This document shows positions 1,336 through 20,313 of a DNA stretch of 62,310 nucleotides, piece after piece. This DNA comes from a virus. How positions within the stretch are numbered: position 1 is the first letter of the stretch; each line of letters begins with the position of its first letter. The translations under genes were made by a program, and so were the position numbers. The DNA lies in the IMG/VR virus record IMGVR_UViG_3300033148_005414, positions 1 to 62,310 of that record. One strand, 5' to 3'. The notes beneath the pieces are model-generated. The model was not told where the DNA came from. It ran no database searches and worked only from the letters and a program-made list of their open reading frames with translations.

Positions 1336-3744
1336 TTATTCCTCTTTTTCAGTTATCACAGCGCCATCAAGAAGTTTGTCTTGGCCGCGTTTAAAATCGA
1401 TTGTTTTCACTACACTTCCTGATTTATTATCAATATTTACATTAATAATTGGGGCTGGAGCTTCGAGCCGTTTAGGCCCATCTTTATTAGTTTCAGCTTC
1501 TGTTTTAGCTTCCCGTTCCAGTTTTACTTCCTCTTTGATGCGTTCAATATCAGCGTCTTTTGCTGTTTCCTCTTTCTCACGCTCAAGCTCACGGTCTAAT
1601 TCTTTTTGGGCCGATTCTTCTTCCATTAATTTAATTTTTAAATCGAACTCCATATCGAGCTTACGCTGGAATTTATCCAGTTCAAGGTCCATTTTTTCAC
1701 GAGACATCTGGCCATCAGCTTCAAGCTTTTGCTTAAACTGGTCCATTTCCATGGCTTGTTTTTCTTTCTCTATAGCGCCTTTTTGTTGAATTTCAACAAT
1801 TTTAGGGTCTTGGGGTGGCTCTTTTTTAGCTTTCTCTTGCTGACGCACCATAAAGTCTTCTTTGGTTGGGATAACGCTTCCAGTTTCCAAATCAAGTAGA
1901 TCAGCTGCGGCTCGTAATACCTCTAAACGACCTTCGACGCCCATAATGCTCATATCAACATCATTATTAGTCATATTTAAGAACTCAGCACGACGCATCT
2001 GTGTTTGCTCTTTAGTGAGTAATGCTGTCGCACCACGAGCAATAATCTTGGCGTCACCTTTAATCGACATATCTTTGTCATAAAGCATATTGTAAGTAAA
2101 GGTTTGTTCGATAGTAGGTTTAACTACTCCCATGTCGATATTTGAAATAGACATTTTAATGCCTTTGGAGGCATTATTCATTAACATAGACAGCCCAGAT
2201 GCCGTAGAGCCTGCTCCACTGACTTTTTCATTGCCGTGAGCGTAACGTGGAATGCTGGTCGCATCGTCTGCACGCTTCTCAAATTCCTCATAAACACGTA
2301 ATAATTCTTGTGCATTAGAGCGTGGCTGATAAAAACGTATAGCCTCTCGGCCTCGACCGGTTTTATCGGCTTTTGTTTGGAAAATTTTCCATGGGTAGAT
2401 TTGCTCGACAGTTTCACCGTCAGCTAGGCGATCCACTTCGACTTCTACGATTGGACCCGAAGCAATACCTAAGTTATTTGCTAGTGCTCTGGCTGTGGCA
2501 TTACACATCCGTTGATGATCTCGCATCAATTTTGGTAGTGCGATACCCCAAAAGGCACCGGGGGTCATTTGAAATGAAGCTTTATGGTAAGGCCGGCGCT
2601 GTAATGGGTCTTTATTAATTACCGCTCGGATAATATGATTACCCACTTTAATAGCGTCAATTTCGTATTCAGCTAACGGATCGTCAATCTCATCTGGATT
2701 AATCCCCCACTCTAAAAGCCATAGTCCTTGAGCAGAGCCCCAGTATTGCAAGCCATCAATGGAGCGCTGATCTTGGCGCATCCAGAACTTATCCTTACCT
2801 TCGAGTGCTGCACGCTCATAATCACGCCACAACCAGTCGCGCAATCCCCCACGGCCATAATCAGTTAGGACAGCGCGTATCGCCTCACTGTTATATCCCG
2901 GTAGGCCGATCATATTATATAAGCCGCGACGAGAATAACGGATCCGCTCAATCAGGTCGCCATCATTAATATTTGATGAGTCTGGTGATGGGTAGATATC
3001 AAAAGGCGAGACCCGAGAATAATTTAACCCAATTTCATCGGCCACGATAGGTTGCCCTTGTGGGCCCCATTTTAAACTTTTCTTTTTTTGGATAATAGGA
3101 GCTTTCATTATCGCAGCGGGGAATGTACAAAAATCTTCAATAAATTCACCTAATGCTTCATCCCAACCACCTTCCGCTAGTTGATCAGCAATTTTTGTTT
3201 CCATTTTGTCTGCTGCTTCTTTTGCCATAACCCTAATCACATTCATAGCCTCATCACGCATTTTACCTGCGCGACCTTCAATGTAAGCCTCATACCCCAT
3301 ATCAGGAGGAAGCTGTGGCATTGTTTGTTGAATACGTTGTGCAATGGATTTCATTACAAAAGGGGGTAATTCTGGCACTGGAGTAGGGGATAACCCCCAT
3401 GGGCGGTCGCCTGCAGGCATTAAGATATCTCTTATCCATGAAACAGCGGCACGAATTTTCGTCGCACTCAACATCATATATATCTCAGAGCCGCCTTGAT
3501 CCCGGATCTGCCTTAATGTTCGCGGATCATACTCACCATTGCGTTGACGCAAGCAAGCAAGGAGCTCATCCTCATGATCTTCTTTGGCCCAGCGATTCAT
3601 TTCCCATGCTTTTTGAATATGCTGAGAAAGCTGCGACTCATACAAAGTGGGGGTATGATCAACTGCTTCTGCTGCCTTTTTTTCTTTTTCAATCTCGTCG
3701 TTATTCTTAACAACGATTAAGCCGTAACCACCCATAAATATCAC
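1336..3744 (-). CDS. Portal protein
   Basis: An 802-residue protein encoded just after the terminase block. The N-terminal and middle parts (about residues 40-560) look like the large podovirus portal: charged helical N-terminus, a stretch reading RDILMPAGDRPWGLSPTP, Trp/Tyr-rich core, and a FYQPRSNAQELLRVYEEFEKRADDA-type helical region. From about residue 600 to 750 there is a long, highly charged coiled coil rich in Glu, Lys and Met. The portal is the dodecameric DNA gate at the capsid vertex that docks terminase and the tail. The start is either GTG at 3744, overlapping the previous stop by 4 bases, or ATG at 3735. Confidence 0.8.
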   Translation of the reverse strand: MIFMGGYGLIVVKNNDEIEKEKKAAEAVDHTPTLYESQLSQHIQKAWEMNRWAKEDHEDELLACLRQRNGEYDPRTLRQIRDQGGSEIYMMLSATKIRAAVSWIRDILMPAGDRPWGLSPTPVPELPPFVMKSIAQRIQQTMPQLPPDMGYEAYIEGRAGKMRDEAMNVIRVMAKEAADKMETKIADQLAEGGWDEALGEFIEDFCTFPAAIMKAPIIQKKKSLKWGPQGQPIVADEIGLNYSRVSPFDIYPSPDSSNINDGDLIERIRYSRRGLYNMIGLPGYNSEAIRAVLTDYGRGGLRDWLWRDYERAALEGKDKFWMRQDQRSIDGLQYWGSAQGLWLLEWGINPDEIDDPLAEYEIDAIKVGNHIIRAVINKDPLQRRPYHKASFQMTPGAFWGIALPKLMRDHQRMCNATARALANNLGIASGPIVEVEVDRLADGETVEQIYPWKIFQTKADKTGRGREAIRFYQPRSNAQELLRVYEEFEKRADDATSIPRYAHGNEKVSGAGSTASGLSMLMNNASKGIKMSISNIDMGVVKPTIEQTFTYNMLYDKDMSIKGDAKIIARGATALLTKEQTQMRRAEFLNMTNNDVDMSIMGVEGRLEVLRAAADLLDLETGSVIPTKEDFMVRQQEKAKKEPPQDPKIVEIQQKGAIEKEKQAMEMDQFKQKLEADGQMSREKMDLELDKFQRKLDMEFDLKIKLMEEESAQKELDRELEREKEETAKDADIERIKEEVKLEREAKTEAETNKDGPKRLEAPAPIINVNIDNKSGSVVKTIDFKRGQDKLLDGAVITEKEE

Positions 3745-4025
3745 CCAGAGTTATTGTCAACCACCTTTAAATCAGGCTTTTTCTTAAAATCATCAGAATC
3801 AATTATAGTTTCTTGGATATGATCTGCTAAAGCATGTAGGCCGAGAATAAAGTCTTCTGGCGGCATGCCATTCATAAATCCCATGTGAATAACTTTTGAT
3901 TTGCCGATATGCTTTCCTTCGCCGTCAACAAAAGGGGTTCCGAAAACGAAATCCATCATATAAGCGTCATCACCAGCCATATCTTGGCCGCGATTCAATT
4001 TAGCATGAACCAATTCAATACCCAT
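3741..4025 (-). CDS. Small protein between TerL and portal
   Basis: A 94-residue acidic protein (MGIELVHAKL...) with a good AGGAG upstream (plus-strand ctcctctt) and a 4-base overlap with the portal start. The tight coupling suggests a packaging or portal-associated role. No recognisable family. Confidence 0.65.
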   Translation of the reverse strand: MGIELVHAKLNRGQDMAGDDAYMMDFVFGTPFVDGEGKHIGKSKVIHMGFMNGMPPEDFILGLHALADHIQETIIDSDDFKKKPDLKVVDNNSG

Positions 4026-4041
4026 TTCTCTCTCCTCTTAA

Positions 4042-4341
4042 TTAACCGCCTTTTTGTTGTTGCTTATAAAGTCGGTCAAGCTCTCGATTAATCCTATCTT
4101 TTTCTGCTTTATCGCCAGTCCAAGACTTTCCTGCGGCATCACGCATGTTAATTTGATTTAATTGCTCGCGTAAATTCTGAATACGATAATCAATCATTTG
4201 CTGAAAACTCATTGCTATCCGAGTATCAACATAATCTTCTGTTGCGAAATAATTCATTGCCCCAGCCGTTGCGCCAGATATTGTGATAATCAAGCCAACC
4301 GCTGTTGCTAATACTTTAACTTCCATTCCGTATTTTCTCAT
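4042..4341 (-). CDS. Single-pass membrane protein with coiled coil
   Basis: Up to 99 residues. A hydrophobic segment (about residues 8-27, VLATAVGLIITISG) is followed by a charged helical tail with heptad character. The start may be ATG 4341 or the internal ATG six codons later; neither has a strong Shine-Dalgarno. The topology resembles phage holin-like or superinfection-exclusion proteins, but nothing specific identifies it. Confidence 0.6.
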   Translation of the reverse strand: MRKYGMEVKVLATAVGLIITISGATAGAMNYFATEDYVDTRIAMSFQQMIDYRIQNLREQLNQINMRDAAGKSWTGDKAEKDRINRELDRLYKQQQKGG

Positions 4342-4385
4342 TAATTGATTCTATGATGATATCACTAATTTGTATAGTAGCAGGT

Positions 4386-5867
4386 TTACGCTGCCCAGCC
4401 ACCAGATTTCCGACGTTTTACTGGTCTGGCTGATACTTTTACAATTTTCATACCTTCGCGGATCATTAATACGCCATACTGAAGCGCTTCATGAACATGA
4501 GAGAAGATATTCTTTTTAGGTTGATCCTTATAGCGTTCTTCGCCAACAACCTGCACTCGCTCGTACATAAAGGCACCATTAAAGCCTTTTCGTAGATATT
4601 TGCATTTTGGGGAAATAATAAATCCGGGCTCGCCATCAATATCATTTTTTAATAAAACCTCTGCTACAGCTTCGCGTCTTGCAATTGGGTTCTGAGTTGA
4701 TGCGGGTTCTGTTGGAAACCCCTCTTCTTCAAGAATATCCATGCACGTGCTTTCATCTGTTTGTACGCCATAACCACCGGATGGATCACCCCATATCCGT
4801 ATTGTCATACCGCCATATTCATTATTGATTTTTGGCCGTAGCGCCTCACGAACAAAGCGACGTACACCCATATCTTCAGAGACTATTTCATCAAGCACTC
4901 GAACCTGCCCTGTTGGAGATAATTGGAATAAAGCAGCAGCTGGGGTGCGGCCAAAATCAAGACCGATATACAGGGTGAGCCCTCGCATAACTTCAAGCTC
5001 TTCTTCAGCACAATGAATTGAGTCAACATATTCATTGTATATTGGCTTACCATCATAAACTGTTGCGTAATCACCAAGAACATAAGACTTAATCCATTCT
5101 TGTGATTTGCCATGGACCATTTGAGTCCAGTATTTAAAGCCAAGTGGTTGATTTTCAACATTTTCAGCGTCTGGATTTGGGAGGTACATAACCTGCCCTT
5201 TTTCATCCACTGCTTTAATGAGCGCCCCGGGTTGACGAAAGAATTTGTAACCTTCAGGTTTTTCTATTTCTGCTATAGAGTACCACCAGTGATCATCATC
5301 CGGCGGGTTAGTATCAAGGATAACCCCGGTAAAGGTTAATTCGCCTTGACGTTTTGCTGGGTAACGGCCTACGCGCATAGTTACACCATCAAGAATGATT
5401 CGCGGAAGCTCCCGGGCTTCGTTGATCCACGCCATCGTTAATTCCATAGAAAGTAATTTCTTAACATCTTTTGGCCGATCTAGAGCAAGAAACCATATCT
5501 CAAATTCAAGTATCGTTCCTTCTGGGAATTTTTCTGTAGGAGGAGCAGCGCAGCGAATCGTGCCTGTTATTGGTGAACCCCAGTTCATATGACATATCGA
5601 TGCCGGGAACCAGTCTTGCCATGTTTTAATTGTTGTTGTTTTTAGTTCTGGGTAGGAGTTACGAATGGCTGCTGCACGGAAACGACGAACACCATCAAAC
5701 CCGGGGGCTTGCTGCATTGCCCTCCATACGAGCTCAAGGCAGCAAGCCACAGATTTCCCAGACCCAACAGGCCCCATAATGCCACGAACAAATTTATCAG
5801 ATCCATGGAATTTAGCTGGGGTTTTTTCAGCCTTATAGTTTATATCGAGTGCTTTTTCTTCACTCAC
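4386..5867 (-). CDS. Terminase large subunit (ATPase/nuclease)
   Basis: A 493-residue DNA-packaging motor. The ATPase domain shows Walker A GPVGSGKS near residues 31-38, a Walker B-like hydrophobic run ending in NEARE near residue 150, and the coupling motif TNPPDDDHWW near residue 185. The C-terminal RNase H-like nuclease has an acidic start (LYIGLDFGRTPAA) near residue 300 and a WGDPSGG stretch. Start is GTG at 5867, overlapping the upstream stop as GTGA. It translocates DNA through the portal encoded two genes later. The small subunit is about 5 kb away at 10666-11262, an unusual separation. Confidence 0.92.
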   Translation of the reverse strand: MSEEKALDINYKAEKTPAKFHGSDKFVRGIMGPVGSGKSVACCLELVWRAMQQAPGFDGVRRFRAAAIRNSYPELKTTTIKTWQDWFPASICHMNWGSPITGTIRCAAPPTEKFPEGTILEFEIWFLALDRPKDVKKLLSMELTMAWINEARELPRIILDGVTMRVGRYPAKRQGELTFTGVILDTNPPDDDHWWYSIAEIEKPEGYKFFRQPGALIKAVDEKGQVMYLPNPDAENVENQPLGFKYWTQMVHGKSQEWIKSYVLGDYATVYDGKPIYNEYVDSIHCAEEELEVMRGLTLYIGLDFGRTPAAALFQLSPTGQVRVLDEIVSEDMGVRRFVREALRPKINNEYGGMTIRIWGDPSGGYGVQTDESTCMDILEEEGFPTEPASTQNPIARREAVAEVLLKNDIDGEPGFIISPKCKYLRKGFNGAFMYERVQVVGEERYKDQPKKNIFSHVHEALQYGVLMIREGMKIVKVSARPVKRRKSGGWAA

Positions 5868-6151
5868 AATAAGCCAGCCTTCAATAATGAAGACGGAGTG
5901 GCTGTGACCGTTGGGTTTGCTGTTTTCTCACAAATCACGATAGGTAATCCGTTAATGCTGTCTGTGTCGCTATTATGACAGACTTCCTCATCACCTATGG
6001 CGTTTTTTAAAACATCATAGTGACTGGCTGTCATTAAAACAAAACCGGGCTCAATATCATGATCTTGAAAACGAGTCATTTGAGCGCGTACCGCAAATAG
6101 GATTGCGCGTGCTTCGACAGGAAAATCGTAGGCTACGGCCTCCATAATCAT
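5864..6151 (-). CDS. Hypothetical protein coupled to TerL
   Basis: A 95-residue protein (MIMEAVAYDFPVEARAILFA) preceded by a GGAG site and overlapping the terminase start by 4 bases. It contains two Cys and several His but no clear zinc pattern. The tight overlap predicts translational coupling to TerL. Function unknown. Confidence 0.65.
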   Translation of the reverse strand: MIMEAVAYDFPVEARAILFAVRAQMTRFQDHDIEPGFVLMTASHYDVLKNAIGDEEVCHNSDTDSINGLPIVICEKTANPTVTATPSSLLKAGLL

Positions 6152-6204
6152 ATACTCCTCAATTTGTGTATATATGAGTAGTATAGAATCTGCTTATCCA
6201 CTTA

Positions 6205-6501
6205 TCAACTAATTTTATCCGCAATTTGTAAAACAACATAATATAAGGCTACAGCGATACCTGTTGTGGAAAAAGCAAAAATTAAAGGGTGGTCGTTTGT
6301 TTTGAGGTTGTCGAGGTCTTGTTTAGCTTCTTTACAGTGATCTTTATCTATTAACAATACTTCTAAAAGTTTACATCCCCAGTAAGCCCACGGATCTTTA
6401 TGGATATTCCGGGCCATACGAGAGCTAATAGTTTCTCGTCGATCCCCACCTAAAATCCAATTGGCTATTCGATCTAGCTCTAATAAAAGCTCTATTAACA
6501 T
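6205..6501 (-). CDS. Small phage protein with C-terminal membrane helix
   Basis: 98 residues from ATG 6501, chosen because GGAG lies six bases upstream; a longer reading from 6540 has no such site. The N-terminal half has the pattern SRMARN...WAYWGCKLLE...DKDHCKEA, which I recognise from a widespread family of short phage proteins of unknown function. The last 30 residues form a hydrophobic helix (IFAFSTTGIAVALYYVVLQIA). Confidence 0.65.
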   Translation of the reverse strand: MLIELLLELDRIANWILGGDRRETISSRMARNIHKDPWAYWGCKLLEVLLIDKDHCKEAKQDLDNLKTNDHPLIFAFSTTGIAVALYYVVLQIADKIS

Positions 6502-6543
6502 ATGTTTCTCCAGTTTAAAATAAAGGGGCCGAAGCCCCATTAT

Positions 6544-6969
6544 TTATGCTGCGAAGGTAATTGCATCCGAAATTGCAAGGCCACCCGTAGGTAGACGTAC
6601 AACAAGGTAAAAGGTTGGAGCTGTTGTTGCATTAGTAATATCGATATCGATATCACCATCTGCCTCCGAAACCAGAGTACCCGAGAGATCCGCAACTGAC
6701 TCTATTAACGCGCCATCAGTACCGATAGCGATACCTCCAGCTGGGGCAGCTGTGCTTGGGGTTAAACCCAAAGCATCGTCTGCTAAATAGAAATCAAGTG
6801 CTGCAACCTCACTCAGAGCTTTACCATTTTGGTCGTTTAGTTGTATGGCGACATTAATGACATCCGCAGCTTCTGCGCCTACAGTGAATACTACACCATA
6901 GCCTTTAACTGGGATTTCATTATCACCTAACAACAATTGACCAATACTTAGACGTTCACGCCATGACAT
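6544..6969 (-). CDS. Putative structural protein (beta-rich)
   Basis: 141 residues from ATG 6969, which has AGGAG eight bases upstream. The sequence alternates hydrophobic strands with Gly, Asp and Thr turns and ends in a strand-rich LVVRLPTGGLAISDAITFAA stretch, as in small virion or decoration proteins. It lies between TerL-linked genes and the lysis cassette. Function inferred only from composition and location. Confidence 0.6.
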   Translation of the reverse strand: MSWRERLSIGQLLLGDNEIPVKGYGVVFTVGAEAADVINVAIQLNDQNGKALSEVAALDFYLADDALGLTPSTAAPAGGIAIGTDGALIESVADLSGTLVSEADGDIDIDITNATTAPTFYLVVRLPTGGLAISDAITFAA

Positions 6970-15681: not shown

Positions 15682-15884
15682 TCACGTCTTCTCATGCCTT
15701 TGTTATAACCCGTATATTCCGGCACTTTTGAGCCGCAGTGTGCTGTAAGTCTGTGTTTCGTGTCCCTTCCGTCTACTTATGGGAGCAAATCCAGCCTGAT
15801 TTGATGATGTATCAATAAAACTAATGAGCTCATAAACACAAACGATTGGCACTTTGAGGAGTTCTCCCCTATTGTCTAATCATA

Positions 15885-15906
15885 CCGACGCGCATTCTGG
15901 TGTTGG
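15885..15906 (+). other. Leader hairpin
   Basis: CCGACGC pairs with GTGTTGG (two G-U pairs) around a loop containing ATTCTG. A close relative with the same loop core lies upstream of the DUF932-like gene at 20292-20313. Confidence 0.4.
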
Positions 15907-16034
15907 TTACTGGAACGGCTCAGTATAATCAGTCGGGATGTGGAGAAGTCCAGCATAGCACTGGAATGAAAGCATCGATAAACCAGAGCGCTTTCACCTG
16001 AGAACGCTCTGCTTTATTAACTGGAGTAAACATC

Positions 16035-16486: not shown

Positions 16487-16888
16487 ATGAATACAGATAG
16501 AGCTCTAATCAGTGCACTACGGGAACGTATAGACATGAAGCAAGCCGTTAGATTCATACGGATACAAGACGATAAGACTAATGATAAAGACGTTATACCT
16601 CTTATACTTCGTTATGAGGCTGTTCATGATACAAAAGGCGTTTTATCAATTAATACAATGGTTGATATCCTGAACAATGACCTATTCGAGATATATACCT
16701 GTAATGATAAGCCAGTTACCTATTGCGATAAATTGCAACCAGCTGGTGCTGTTACAGGCTGGGATATCAAGTGGGTATTAGCTCCTAACCGTGAAGCTAT
16801 TAAACAATATCCATTCTTTGACTGCATTATAACCAAGAATGATAACTCAACCGGTCGAGCGACTGATGCTGAGCTATTCATTCCCTAA
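16487..16888 (+). CDS. Hypothetical protein, first gene behind the Fur box
   Basis: 133 residues from ATG 16487, with GAGG eight bases upstream; a GTG four codons earlier is less likely. Begins MNTDRALISALRERIDMKQA. Mixed alpha/beta composition, no recognised family. The first hammerhead ribozyme begins two bases after its stop codon. Confidence 0.6.
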   Translation: MNTDRALISALRERIDMKQAVRFIRIQDDKTNDKDVIPLILRYEAVHDTKGVLSINTMVDILNNDLFEIYTCNDKPVTYCDKLQPAGAVTGWDIKWVLAPNREAIKQYPFFDCIITKNDNSTGRATDAELFIP

Positions 16889-16889
16889 T

Positions 16890-16946
16890 GTCGAAACTGG
16901 TCTGGAGGCCAGTCTACCAACTTGAGTATGTTGGTACTGATGAGAC
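16890..16946 (+). ncRNA. Type II hammerhead ribozyme 1
   Basis: All core elements occur in order. Stem II strand GTC (16890-16892) is followed by GAAA. Stem III is CTGGTC/GGCCAG with a TGGA loop, followed by U16913 and C16914 (cleavage site after C16914). Stem I is TACCAAC/GTTGGTA, seven perfect pairs. CTGATGA lies at 16937-16943, then GAC closes a 3-bp stem II. The element lies between the stop at 16888 and the next start at 16971. Confidence 0.88.
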
Positions 16947-16970
16947 TACTCACTAACTGGAGGTCATCCC

Positions 16971-17399
16971 ATGTCAAAACGATACGCTAAAATAAAGCGG
17001 TCAAGACTTGCAAAAAATGACAATAATAATTGTTCTGTTATTGCTACGTCTATCGCTTGCCGTGTTTCATACTTTAAAGCCCATGCTGCATGCGCTAGCT
17101 CAGGCCGTAAAGATGGCCATGGCTTGAGCAATGAAGGCGTTCTTTTAGCCGCTGAGCGGTTAGGTTGTGAGCTTGCCCCTGTAACTAATAGAAACGGTAA
17201 ACCATTACTTCAAAAGAACGGTTCAAAGTTCACACCCAAAACAATCAGCAAAAGATTGAAGTCTGGGTATTTTCTTTGCTTCGTTCATAGTCATGTTTTC
17301 TCAGTGGTTAATGGTCAAGTCGAAGACTGGACTAATAACAGAGCTCACCACATTTATGAAGTGTGGCGTGTCTCAGTACCAAAGGGATCACGCTCTTAA
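16971..17399 (+). CDS. Papain-like-fold cysteine protein, putative
   Basis: 142 residues with a basic N-terminus, then NNNCSVIATSIACRVSY, which resembles the Cys-bearing helix of papain-like proteins common in phages. Later GYFLCFVHSHVFSVVNGQVEDW could supply the catalytic His (HVFSVVNG) and acidic residue. Such phage proteins have no settled role. Expressed downstream of ribozyme 1, with GGAGG before the ATG. Confidence 0.55.
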   Translation: MSKRYAKIKRSRLAKNDNNNCSVIATSIACRVSYFKAHAACASSGRKDGHGLSNEGVLLAAERLGCELAPVTNRNGKPLLQKNGSKFTPKTISKRLKSGYFLCFVHSHVFSVVNGQVEDWTNNRAHHIYEVWRVSVPKGSRS

Positions 17400-17432
17400 T
17401 ACCCCTATAAATAAATTCAATTATCAATCTGT

Positions 17433-17463
17433 GAACTACTGGCCTATTGTTGGTTAGTAGTTC
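17433..17463 (+). other. Intercistronic hairpin
   Basis: GAACTACTGGCC pairs with GGTTAGTAGTTC (12 pairs, two G-U) around a 7-base loop. No U-run follows, so it is not a normal terminator. A second small hairpin (ACTTAG/CTAAGT, 17471-17486) lies just before the AAGGAG of the next gene and may affect its translation. Confidence 0.55.
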
Positions 17464-17498
17464 AATAACCACTTAGTCAACTAAGTAAGGAGCACATC

Positions 17499-17768
17499 AT
17501 GCCTACTCAATTCACTGCAATATATAAACCTAAGCCAATTAAGTCTAGCCCGCTTAGGGATGAAGTTTGTCAAACTAGGCCAATTGTAGTTGGCCGTGAC
17601 CGGTCTCAGGCTCGCATCTCAATAGTTGAAGCTAAAGAACTACAATCCCAGCTGTCAATTGCTATCCGTCAAGCCGAACACAATCTAATCGTTACCAAAA
17701 AGGGTGCTGTATTAGAAGAGCACTACATTCATGGCTTCAAATACTTCACTTGCCCTAACCAACATTAA
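17499..17768 (+). CDS. Hypothetical protein
   Basis: 89 residues (MPTQFTAIYKPKPIKSSPLR), basic, with a helical middle (EAKELQSQLSIAIRQAEHNL) and HGFKYFTCP near the end. GGAG precedes the start. Ribozyme 2 begins four bases after its stop. Function unknown. Confidence 0.6.
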   Translation: MPTQFTAIYKPKPIKSSPLRDEVCQTRPIVVGRDRSQARISIVEAKELQSQLSIAIRQAEHNLIVTKKGAVLEEHYIHGFKYFTCPNQH

Positions 17769-17771
17769 ACC

Positions 17772-17832
17772 TATCGAAACACGGTTCGAGGCCGTGTCTG
17801 TGTAAGTTGAGAACTTGCATACTGATGAGATA
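17772..17832 (+). ncRNA. Type II hammerhead ribozyme 2
   Basis: Stem II TATC (17772-17775) pairs with GATA (17829-17832). GAAA is at 17776-17779. Stem III is CACGGT/GCCGTG, followed by U17797 and C17798 (cleavage after C17798). Stem I is about ten pairs with two G-U, closed by GAG, ending at 17821. CTGATGA is at 17822-17828. Every invariant core base is present. Confidence 0.88.
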
Positions 17833-17869
17833 ACTCTTTGAATTATAGAACAAAACAGGAGAAATAACC

Positions 17870-18106
17870 ATGCCAAACTTTGATAGAATTAAGAAATATG
17901 AGCAGGATTTTAATGAAGGTAAAGCCATTGCTATTATCTGGTGTACTGATGATGTTAAACACCGTGCACTTGAATCTAAAATTAAACTTACTGAACAGGA
18001 GTGCATTGATGTTCTCTCAGTGATAAAAAATAACCATGATTGCAATTATGGCCTTACATGGGAGACCATCGATACAGTGGTGGACGATATCGTCAAGGAG
18101 CGGTGA
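17870..18106 (+). CDS. Conserved-type phage/plasmid protein
   Basis: 78 residues (MPNFDRIKKYEQDFNEGKAI). The C-terminal half, LTEQECIDVLSVIKNNHDCN and TWETIDTVVDDIVKER, is a pattern I recognise from short helical proteins in many phages and plasmids. Function not known. GGAG precedes the start. Confidence 0.65.
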   Translation: MPNFDRIKKYEQDFNEGKAIAIIWCTDDVKHRALESKIKLTEQECIDVLSVIKNNHDCNYGLTWETIDTVVDDIVKER

Positions 18107-18171
18107 AACAATTTATACCTATGCTTTTAATGATGGGTATATGTGGTTTTACTAAAAGAGAGGTGAATATC

Positions 18172-18591
18172 ATGAGCAGATCAGTATCAACACCAAACGG
18201 AGCGGTAGCTATTGCATACCGTGACGTTACATATATGACTGATGAAGATTCTCAATGGGAATGGGATATGTTCCAAGAGGATATTATTCAGCAACTACAA
18301 AATGCTTTCCCATCACTTGATGAGGCTGATAGTTGGATCGGACGTGAGGATCATGTAGTCCTCGAAAACAGTCATTGTCAGGTAACTATCTCAGAATATT
18401 GCGGCTTAGCTGCAATTTCATTAGTGCCTATTGAGCGAGACTGTTTCTACGCCGAGGATTTTGGCTCACAAAACTTATCCTATCATTGGTGCCAGCAAAT
18501 TGCTAAGAAATTCAACGAGTTACTGGGTGAACTACGGCATGTGGCCACCTTTAGTAATGGCGAGGCAGTATTTGAGCGTATAGCGCAATAG
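18172..18591 (+). CDS. Conserved-type phage protein
   Basis: 139 residues from ATG 18172 (MSRSVSTPNGAVAIAYRDVT), preceded by GAGG; a longer reading from 18040 lies over the previous gene and is unlikely. Acidic, with a WEWDMFQEDIIQQLQNAFPS stretch typical of uncharacterised proteins in phages and plasmids. Its TAG stop shares a base with ribozyme 3. Confidence 0.62.
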   Translation: MSRSVSTPNGAVAIAYRDVTYMTDEDSQWEWDMFQEDIIQQLQNAFPSLDEADSWIGREDHVVLENSHCQVTISEYCGLAAISLVPIERDCFYAEDFGSQNLSYHWCQQIAKKFNELLGELRHVATFSNGEAVFERIAQ

Positions 18592-18642
18592 TCGAAACAC
18601 GCTGGGAGGCGTGTCTGCGGGATATACCCGTACTGATGAGAC
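18591..18642 (+). ncRNA. Type II hammerhead ribozyme 3
   Basis: Stem II GTC (18591-18593) pairs with GAC (18640-18642). GAAA is at 18594-18597. Stem III is CACGC/GCGTG with a 6-base loop, then U18614 and C18615 (cleavage after C18615). Stem I is TGCGGG/CCCGTA with one G-U. CTGATGA is at 18633-18639. The Shine-Dalgarno of the next gene starts two bases after the element. Confidence 0.88.
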
Positions 18643-18654
18643 TTGGAGAAAATT

Positions 18655-18855
18655 ATGGTATTCCATAAGCTATTTGTTACACACACCACGGGCGCAATTC
18701 GCAAGATTAGACTTAAGTTTGACACTAAACGCAGTATTGAGTCCTTGCGTTTGAGCGTCCTGTTTCCTATCGACTGGAAAATTACCTCAGTCGCATACTT
18801 AAACGCACCACGGAGGCGTAATGTCCCATATAACAATTACCATTCACACAAATAA
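18655..18855 (+). CDS. Hypothetical protein
   Basis: 66 residues from ATG 18655, with TTGGAG seven bases upstream (MVFHKLFVTHTTGAIRKIRL). Basic. It overlaps the next gene by 35 bases. Function unknown. Its mRNA 5' end would be produced by ribozyme 3. Confidence 0.55.
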   Translation: MVFHKLFVTHTTGAIRKIRLKFDTKRSIESLRLSVLFPIDWKITSVAYLNAPRRRNVPYNNYHSHK

Positions 18856-19230: not shown

Positions 19231-19407
19231 ATGCAAATAACTAACCCAGACCGTGACATTATTATCGACTACCAGAACAACGGCGATAATATTAGGCGAG
19301 TAGCCACGTATCCCGATGGTCACTTAAAAATGACCCTTCTCGATAAAGACAAGGCTGATGAGGACGCAATCGACCTTGTAGATAATTACGACTACACATT
19401 TATTTAG
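19231..19407 (+). CDS. Hypothetical acidic protein
   Basis: 58 residues from the second ATG (19231), which has AAGGAG seven bases upstream; the ATG at 19225 is too close to that site. Begins MQITNPDRDIIIDYQNNGDN and ends with an acidic DLVDNYDYTFI. Function unknown. Confidence 0.52.
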   Translation: MQITNPDRDIIIDYQNNGDNIRRVATYPDGHLKMTLLDKDKADEDAIDLVDNYDYTFI

Positions 19408-19417
19408 TTATTCAGTT

Positions 19418-19443
19418 AATAGGCGTCAGTAATGGCGTCTATT
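19418..19443 (+). other. Intercistronic hairpin
   Basis: AATAGGCGTC pairs with GGCGTCTATT (ten pairs including two G-U) around a 6-base loop, with no U-run after it. It lies between a stop at 19407 and the AAGGAG of the next gene. Confidence 0.5.
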
Positions 19444-19471
19444 GTCGGACTAACTGAGAAAGGAGAATCCG

Positions 19472-20279: not shown

Positions 20280-20291
20280 TTTAAACTAATA

Positions 20292-20313
20292 CCGACGCTA
20301 ATTCTGGCGTCGG
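20292..20313 (+). other. Leader hairpin of DUF932-like gene
   Basis: CCGACGC pairs perfectly with GCGTCGG (7 bp) around TAATTCTG. It resembles the hairpin at 15885-15906. It lies 23 bases before the start of the next gene. Confidence 0.5.

Follow-up and report, generated by a model that had tools for sequence, protein, structure and literature searches.

Clusters of type I-III hammerhead ribozymes that flank genes or short gene blocks have been described in prophages, and a function in transcript processing was proposed for them (Perreault et al. 2011, PMC3088659). Among these, the triple array of Agrobacterium (A. tumefaciens), which flanks ardA, cleaves itself in vitro as well as in E. coli; for relatives, native polycistronic phage RNA was shown to be cleaved, and of the 18 consensus hammerheads assayed in 2011, 4 showed no activity in vitro (PMC3088659). 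In the haloviruses HF1/HF2, the hammerhead HHphage lies just upstream of an early phage gene, as in the locus described here, and a mapped transcript 5′ end coincides with the cut, although HHphage differs in being a core variant, present in a single copy, and located where an operon begins, at its 5′ edge, instead of between its genes (PMC3088659). A 2017 review noted that hammerheads lie close together, flank small ORFs and have a persistent link to phages, and called their role open (PMC6155905). Cutting of polycistronic RNA between genes is likewise a feature of the cip-cel selective RNA processing/stabilization operon of Clostridium, where message levels are governed by hairpins at the ends so created, although the abstract of that report describes no self-cleaving ribozyme as the cutter (PMC4423207). 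The locus that we describe is a new example of the known phage hammerhead clusters, not a new kind of thing. It resembles them in layout, with several same-strand hammerheads placed around individual genes or short runs of small phage genes, and differs in belonging to another phage, in consisting of type II elements only, in flanking genes of unknown function rather than ardA, and in that cleavage is here a prediction.

The window, i.e. the whole stretch of 62,310 bases that was analyzed, comes from IMG/VR as a virus contig, and its genes include those for head, portal-like, terminase, RecT, helicase and thymidylate synthase proteins. Most of its genes lie on the minus strand, and a rightward set of small genes occupies approximately 16.0-22.8 kb. 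A type II hammerhead descriptor (stem II, GAAA, stem III, UH, stem I, CTGATGA, in that order) matched exactly three sites in the window, all on the plus strand, while its strict form gave 0 matches in 200 first-order Markov shuffles versus 3 in the window. No type I or type III hammerhead was found in the window. The genes and ribozyme elements are as follows.

16487-16888 (+): gene A, 133 aa from ATG, no family; the cistron upstream of hammerhead 1
16890-16946 (+): hammerhead 1, type II; descriptor, covariance model
16890-16892/16944-16946 (+): hammerhead 1 stem II, 3 pairs
16893-16896 (+): hammerhead 1 GAAA
16896-16902/16907-16913 (+): hammerhead 1 stem III, 7 pairs
After C16914 (+): hammerhead 1 predicted cut
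16915-16921/16930-16936 (+): hammerhead 1 stem I, 7 pairs
16937-16943 (+): hammerhead 1 core CTGATGA
16923-16928 with 16947-16952 (+): hammerhead 1 pseudoknot, loop I TGAGTA with TACTCA just 3′ of stem II, 6 Watson-Crick pairs
16971-17399 (+): gene B, 142 aa, PHROG 3754 (function unknown)
17499-17768 (+): gene C, 89 aa, no family; with gene B, the first bracketed block
17772-17832 (+): hammerhead 2, type II; descriptor, covariance model
17772-17775/17829-17832 (+): hammerhead 2 stem II, 4 pairs
17776-17779 (+): hammerhead 2 GAAA
17779-17786/17790-17797 (+): hammerhead 2 stem III, 8 pairs
After C17798 (+): hammerhead 2 predicted cut
17799-17808/17812-17821 (+): hammerhead 2 stem I, 10 pairs
17822-17828 (+): hammerhead 2 core
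17870-18106 (+): gene D, 78 aa, PHROG 30886/10258 (function unknown)
18172-18591 (+): gene E, 139 aa; with gene D, the second bracketed block
18590-18643 (+): hammerhead 3, type II; descriptor, covariance model, sub-threshold Rfam match, minimum-energy fold
18590-18593/18640-18643 (+): hammerhead 3 stem II, 4 pairs
18594-18597 (+): hammerhead 3 GAAA
18597-18603/18608-18614 (+): hammerhead 3 stem III, 7 pairs
After C18615 (+): hammerhead 3 predicted cut
18616-18621/18627-18632 (+): hammerhead 3 stem I, 6 pairs
18633-18639 (+): hammerhead 3 core
18655-18855 (+): gene F, 66 aa, the first gene downstream of hammerhead 3

The initial annotation had recognized three type II hammerheads in this stretch, and the sequence and the descriptor scan agree with it on coordinates, stems, cores and cut sites. 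All three elements possess three stems, with I and III closed by loops and II open-ended, and carry GUC at the predicted cleavage site at the III/I junction, in keeping with the NUH rule. Its claims that every invariant core base is present and that the stems vary in a compensatory manner likewise held, as CUGAUGA and GAAA occur in 3 of 3 elements, the stems of the three copies differ yet still pair while all core bases are kept, and covariation extends across 45 other hammerheads. A GAGGC sequence around the stem III loop, which catalysis does not need, is common to all three hammerheads (16890-18643) and suggests, from sequence resemblance, a common origin by local duplication within the operon. 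In isolation, hammerhead 3 has the exact hammerhead as its minimum-energy structure, and hammerheads 1 and 2 form stems I and III in theirs. In predicted folds of longer context, stems I and III of hammerheads 1 and 2 persist, and once flanking RNA is included, pairing with the end of gene E competes with the fold of hammerhead 3. The pseudoknot of hammerhead 1 is of the loop I/stem II tail kind described for type II hammerheads (PMC3088659). In hammerhead 2 the loop I contact is limited to 3 pairs (GAG/CTC), and no clear contact or pseudoknot of this kind is seen in hammerhead 3, so these two ribozymes may be slower. A pseudoknot of at least 4 pairs was found in 85 of 149 hammerheads versus 30 (sd 4.6) in permuted sequences; the contact is a majority feature of type II hammerheads and is not found in all of them.

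The Rfam comparison called for in the initial annotation gave a mixed outcome: Hammerhead_II (RF02276) reported hammerhead 3, at 26.8 bits versus the curated cut-off of 37, and returned no match for the other two. Because hammerhead 3 alone was reported, and below the cut-off, we built a separate covariance model from 45 hammerheads of other viral contigs, leaving the window out of training. It recovered hammerhead 1 at 56.7 bits (E=2.3e-14), hammerhead 2 at 45.2 bits (E=5.4e-11) and hammerhead 3 at 61.1 bits (E=1.2e-15), and the next match in the window came at E=1. In the alignment of the 45 members, 96.1% of cells pair, and changes on both sides of a pair occur in 206 cells versus 59 in shuffles. 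Members of this model were chosen with a minimum stem length, a selection that had little effect, since the full structure is present in 118 of 120 and 108 of 120 listed loci from two pattern scans that used sequence only. The three elements share core, topology and stem order with RF02276, and unlike its members at the curated cut-off they all score below it. The curated score is a database cut-off rather than a defining property of a type II hammerhead. It also misses an element of viral contig L033 (3616-3674) that reaches 56 bits in a covariance model, and other contigs have clear arrays in which some members likewise score under it.

Gene order suggests that the ribozyme stretch is transcribed as a single operon. 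Family searches found no known function for its genes; gene A had no PHROG match and just a sub-threshold Pfam match (E 0.09). The initial annotation had placed the three ribozymes in successive gaps, which proved incorrect: the gaps at 17400-17498 and 18107-18171 contain hairpins and no hammerhead, so the ribozymes bracket two two-gene blocks, B+C and D+E. Two intergenic gaps that lack a hammerhead contain strong hairpins, at 17430-17466 (z -3.5) and 19404-19460 (z -4.1), which are possibly terminators, 3′ stabilizers or nuclease sites. Elsewhere in the region, the hairpin element ATACCGACGCNNATTCTGGNGT is repeated in two exact plus-strand copies (15882-15903 and 20289-20310), with none expected by chance, and a 19-nt inverted repeat with arms 84% complementary (15978-16017), possibly a leader hairpin or terminator, lies just upstream of the first rightward genes.

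The 5′ edge of each ribozyme is set against a stop codon. Hammerhead 1 begins 2 nt past the end of the gene A stop codon, hammerhead 2 begins 4 nt past that of gene C, and hammerhead 3 overlaps the gene E stop by 2 nt (A18590 and G18591 of TAG 18589-18591). From the end of each element to the next ATG there are 24, 37 and 11 nt, respectively, and the ribosome-binding site of gene F (TTGGAG) begins immediately past stem II of hammerhead 3. In a literature search that covered open-licence papers, no statement of this placement was found in the 2011 account, the text of which contains “stop codon,” “translation” and “ribosome” 0 times each (PMC3088659). We surveyed viral contigs with two pattern scans (TC-GAAA and GC-GAAA types), which yielded at least 120 loci each and 243 unique type II hammerheads, using patterns partly derived from the window and simple ORF calling. 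Among the 243 listed, 78% and 71% in the two samples start between -6 and +10 nt from a stop codon, versus 4.4% of random positions; 55 overlap the stop codon. A Shine-Dalgarno sequence and start codon follow within 60 nt downstream for 196 of 242 listed hammerheads, versus 47 for random positions. Uniform placement of the listed hammerheads between stop and Shine-Dalgarno sequence would yield 122.9 (sd 5.0) that hug the stop, versus 170 observed, and short gaps account for part, not all, of the placement. Because the predicted cut falls 18 nt or more past the stop (median 27, for listed hammerheads near a stop), the upstream message keeps its stop codon and the downstream message keeps its ribosome-binding site. 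Type I hammerheads show a related placement, in which the upstream stop often lies within CTGATGA.

Since some hammerheads overlap the stop codon, a ribosome terminating there could cover GAAA and a strand of stem II, such that cleavage would occur only while no ribosome is terminating on the upstream gene; the ribozyme would then report translation of the upstream cistron and regulate the operon. The abutment or overlap seen in most of the 243 listed hammerheads (with 55 overlaps), the identity of two stem II bases of hammerhead 3 with stop-codon bases, and a type I hammerhead of viral contig L133 with the upstream stop inside CTGATGA all fit such a gate. We nevertheless consider it unlikely: the same placement is expected in a compact genome if the only constraint on the cut is that it follow the stop and precede the next ribosome-binding site, short gaps already explain part of the excess (122.9 of 170 expected), and there is no sign that cleavage is slow enough for gating. 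Because the gaps are compact, gating and simple separation are hard to tell apart by sequence. A wider proposition, which we regard as doubtful, is that type II hammerheads are a general stop-codon-keyed punctuation, the serial arrays of which (up to 11 per virus) would yield hairpin-capped messages, with the stem II/stop overlap letting the terminating ribosome time the cut and thereby tying message release to translation.

We favor the simpler reading that the three hammerheads are cis-acting cistron separators (probability roughly 0.72), and that the operon transcript probably cuts itself into smaller messages, as judged from the ribozyme sequences. Each hammerhead would fold during rightward transcription and cut the RNA downstream of a stop codon but ahead of the ribosome-binding site that follows. 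The products would be an upstream message ending in A, bicistronic messages for B+C (884 nt) and D+E (817 nt), and a last message that begins ahead of F. As the ribozyme starts at the stop codon and the ribosome-binding site and start codon follow it, the cut would leave both messages intact. To our knowledge, only in the type II topology do both stem I and stem III of a hammerhead form closed hairpins; therefore, the upstream RNA should end in the stem III hairpin and the downstream RNA should start with the stem I hairpin, whereas types I and III would be expected to leave one product without a flush hairpin. The predicted ends are a 2′,3′-cyclic phosphate on a flush stem III hairpin and a 5′-OH on a flush stem I hairpin, which should resist 3′-5′ exonucleases and 5′-monophosphate-dependent RNase E and therefore allow separate stability for each block. 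RiboJ-type synthetic insulators, in which a hammerhead and a hairpin leave a defined 5′ end before the ribosome-binding site, differ from the phage array in being engineered, single and promoter-proximal. From the observed ribozyme anatomy, covariation and placement, we infer cleavage at this locus, message stabilization and uncoupling of the blocks; points against separation are the two gaps in the same stretch that lack a ribozyme, the possibly slower hammerheads 2 and 3, the competing fold of hammerhead 3, the inactive consensus hammerheads of the 2011 study and the absence of type II hammerheads from structural-gene relatives. The identity of the elements and their reading as cuts between genes, also part of the initial annotation, are well supported by sequence, covariation and placement. 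Its view that serial hammerhead separators were undescribed fails, because hammerhead clusters flanking genes in prophages were described in 2011 (PMC3088659), and the arrangement in phages/prophages also appears in the later review (PMC6155905).

Two other fates of the cut RNA were weighed. Constitutive cleavage without stabilizing ends can destabilize mRNA, and the 5′-OH fragments might be degraded, lowering downstream gene expression instead of separating it. This seems very unlikely in view of the hairpins with which type II topology caps the two cut ends, the stop codon and ribosome-binding site that the cut leaves intact, and the arrays of up to 11 elements, which would silence whole operons. 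Arrays of 9 to 11 type II hammerheads do occur in some viral contigs. The L049 record (G020) has 11, and L033 (IMGVR_UViG_3300000217_000001) has nine model matches and a tenth hammerhead-like element at 3318-6700, where type II hammerheads occupy nearly every gap in a run of small genes. Alternatively, segments between two hammerheads could be ligated into circular RNAs carrying two genes, as viroids and retrozymes make circles from flanking hammerheads with 5′-OH and 2′,3′-cyclic phosphate ends. We give this hardly any weight: Perreault et al. sought spliced or circular products from hammerhead arrays and found none (PMC3088659), and the record lacks an RtcB ligase gene. A search of the record for the T4 RNA ligase family gave no match, with controls equally silent.

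The virion protein of this phage is 30-34% identical to those of 58-63 kb phages, e.g. Itty13, BcepIL02 and Agrobacterium phage Atu_ph08, and a genome scan returned one 30% relative, in a Rhodocyclaceae MAG. Whole-genome searches of eight phages that share the internal virion protein (Atu_ph08, Itty13, PBC5, BcepIL02, POI1126, Mwe-JY07, CF418P1 and Pavtok) found no real type II hammerhead. An 18.5-bit match in BcepIL02, which lacks CTGATGA and lies in GC-rich sequence, was read as chance. Because these structural-gene relatives lack them, type II hammerheads are not required throughout the lineage. A BLAST search with the operon and its flanks against phage records gave no informative match, and gene-based searches of viral contigs found no relatives of gene B, gene D or the RusA gene. 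Gene E has relatives in two Alishewanella phages and in 11 viral contigs, and the surroundings of these relatives contain no type II hammerhead. In L133, an otherwise unrelated phage, two type I hammerheads (4807-4860 and 5457-5518) lie upstream of a gene E relative, and a gene that ends at 5466 has its stop codon within the CTGATGA core of a type I hammerhead. The relatives without type II hammerheads, together with the local duplication suggested by the shared GAGGC, could be taken to mean that the ribozymes are relics or passengers, copied within the operon and without a present role. That three divergent copies keep all core bases while their stems change in a compensatory manner, and that covariation is strong across phages, makes this highly improbable.

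What is new here is the tendency of type II hammerheads in phages to begin at the stop codon, and this and the long arrays are useful additions to the earlier descriptions. To the role of hammerheads in phages that the 2017 review called open (PMC6155905), this phage contributes a clean three-ribozyme operon. The stop-codon rule, drawn from 243 listed ribozymes, turns a vague notion of “processing” into a testable one, in which both neighboring messages would survive, each cut end being capped by a hairpin. Cistron separation predicts 5′-OH ends one base past each C17, and that mutation of a ribozyme core would shift the ratios of the neighboring messages.
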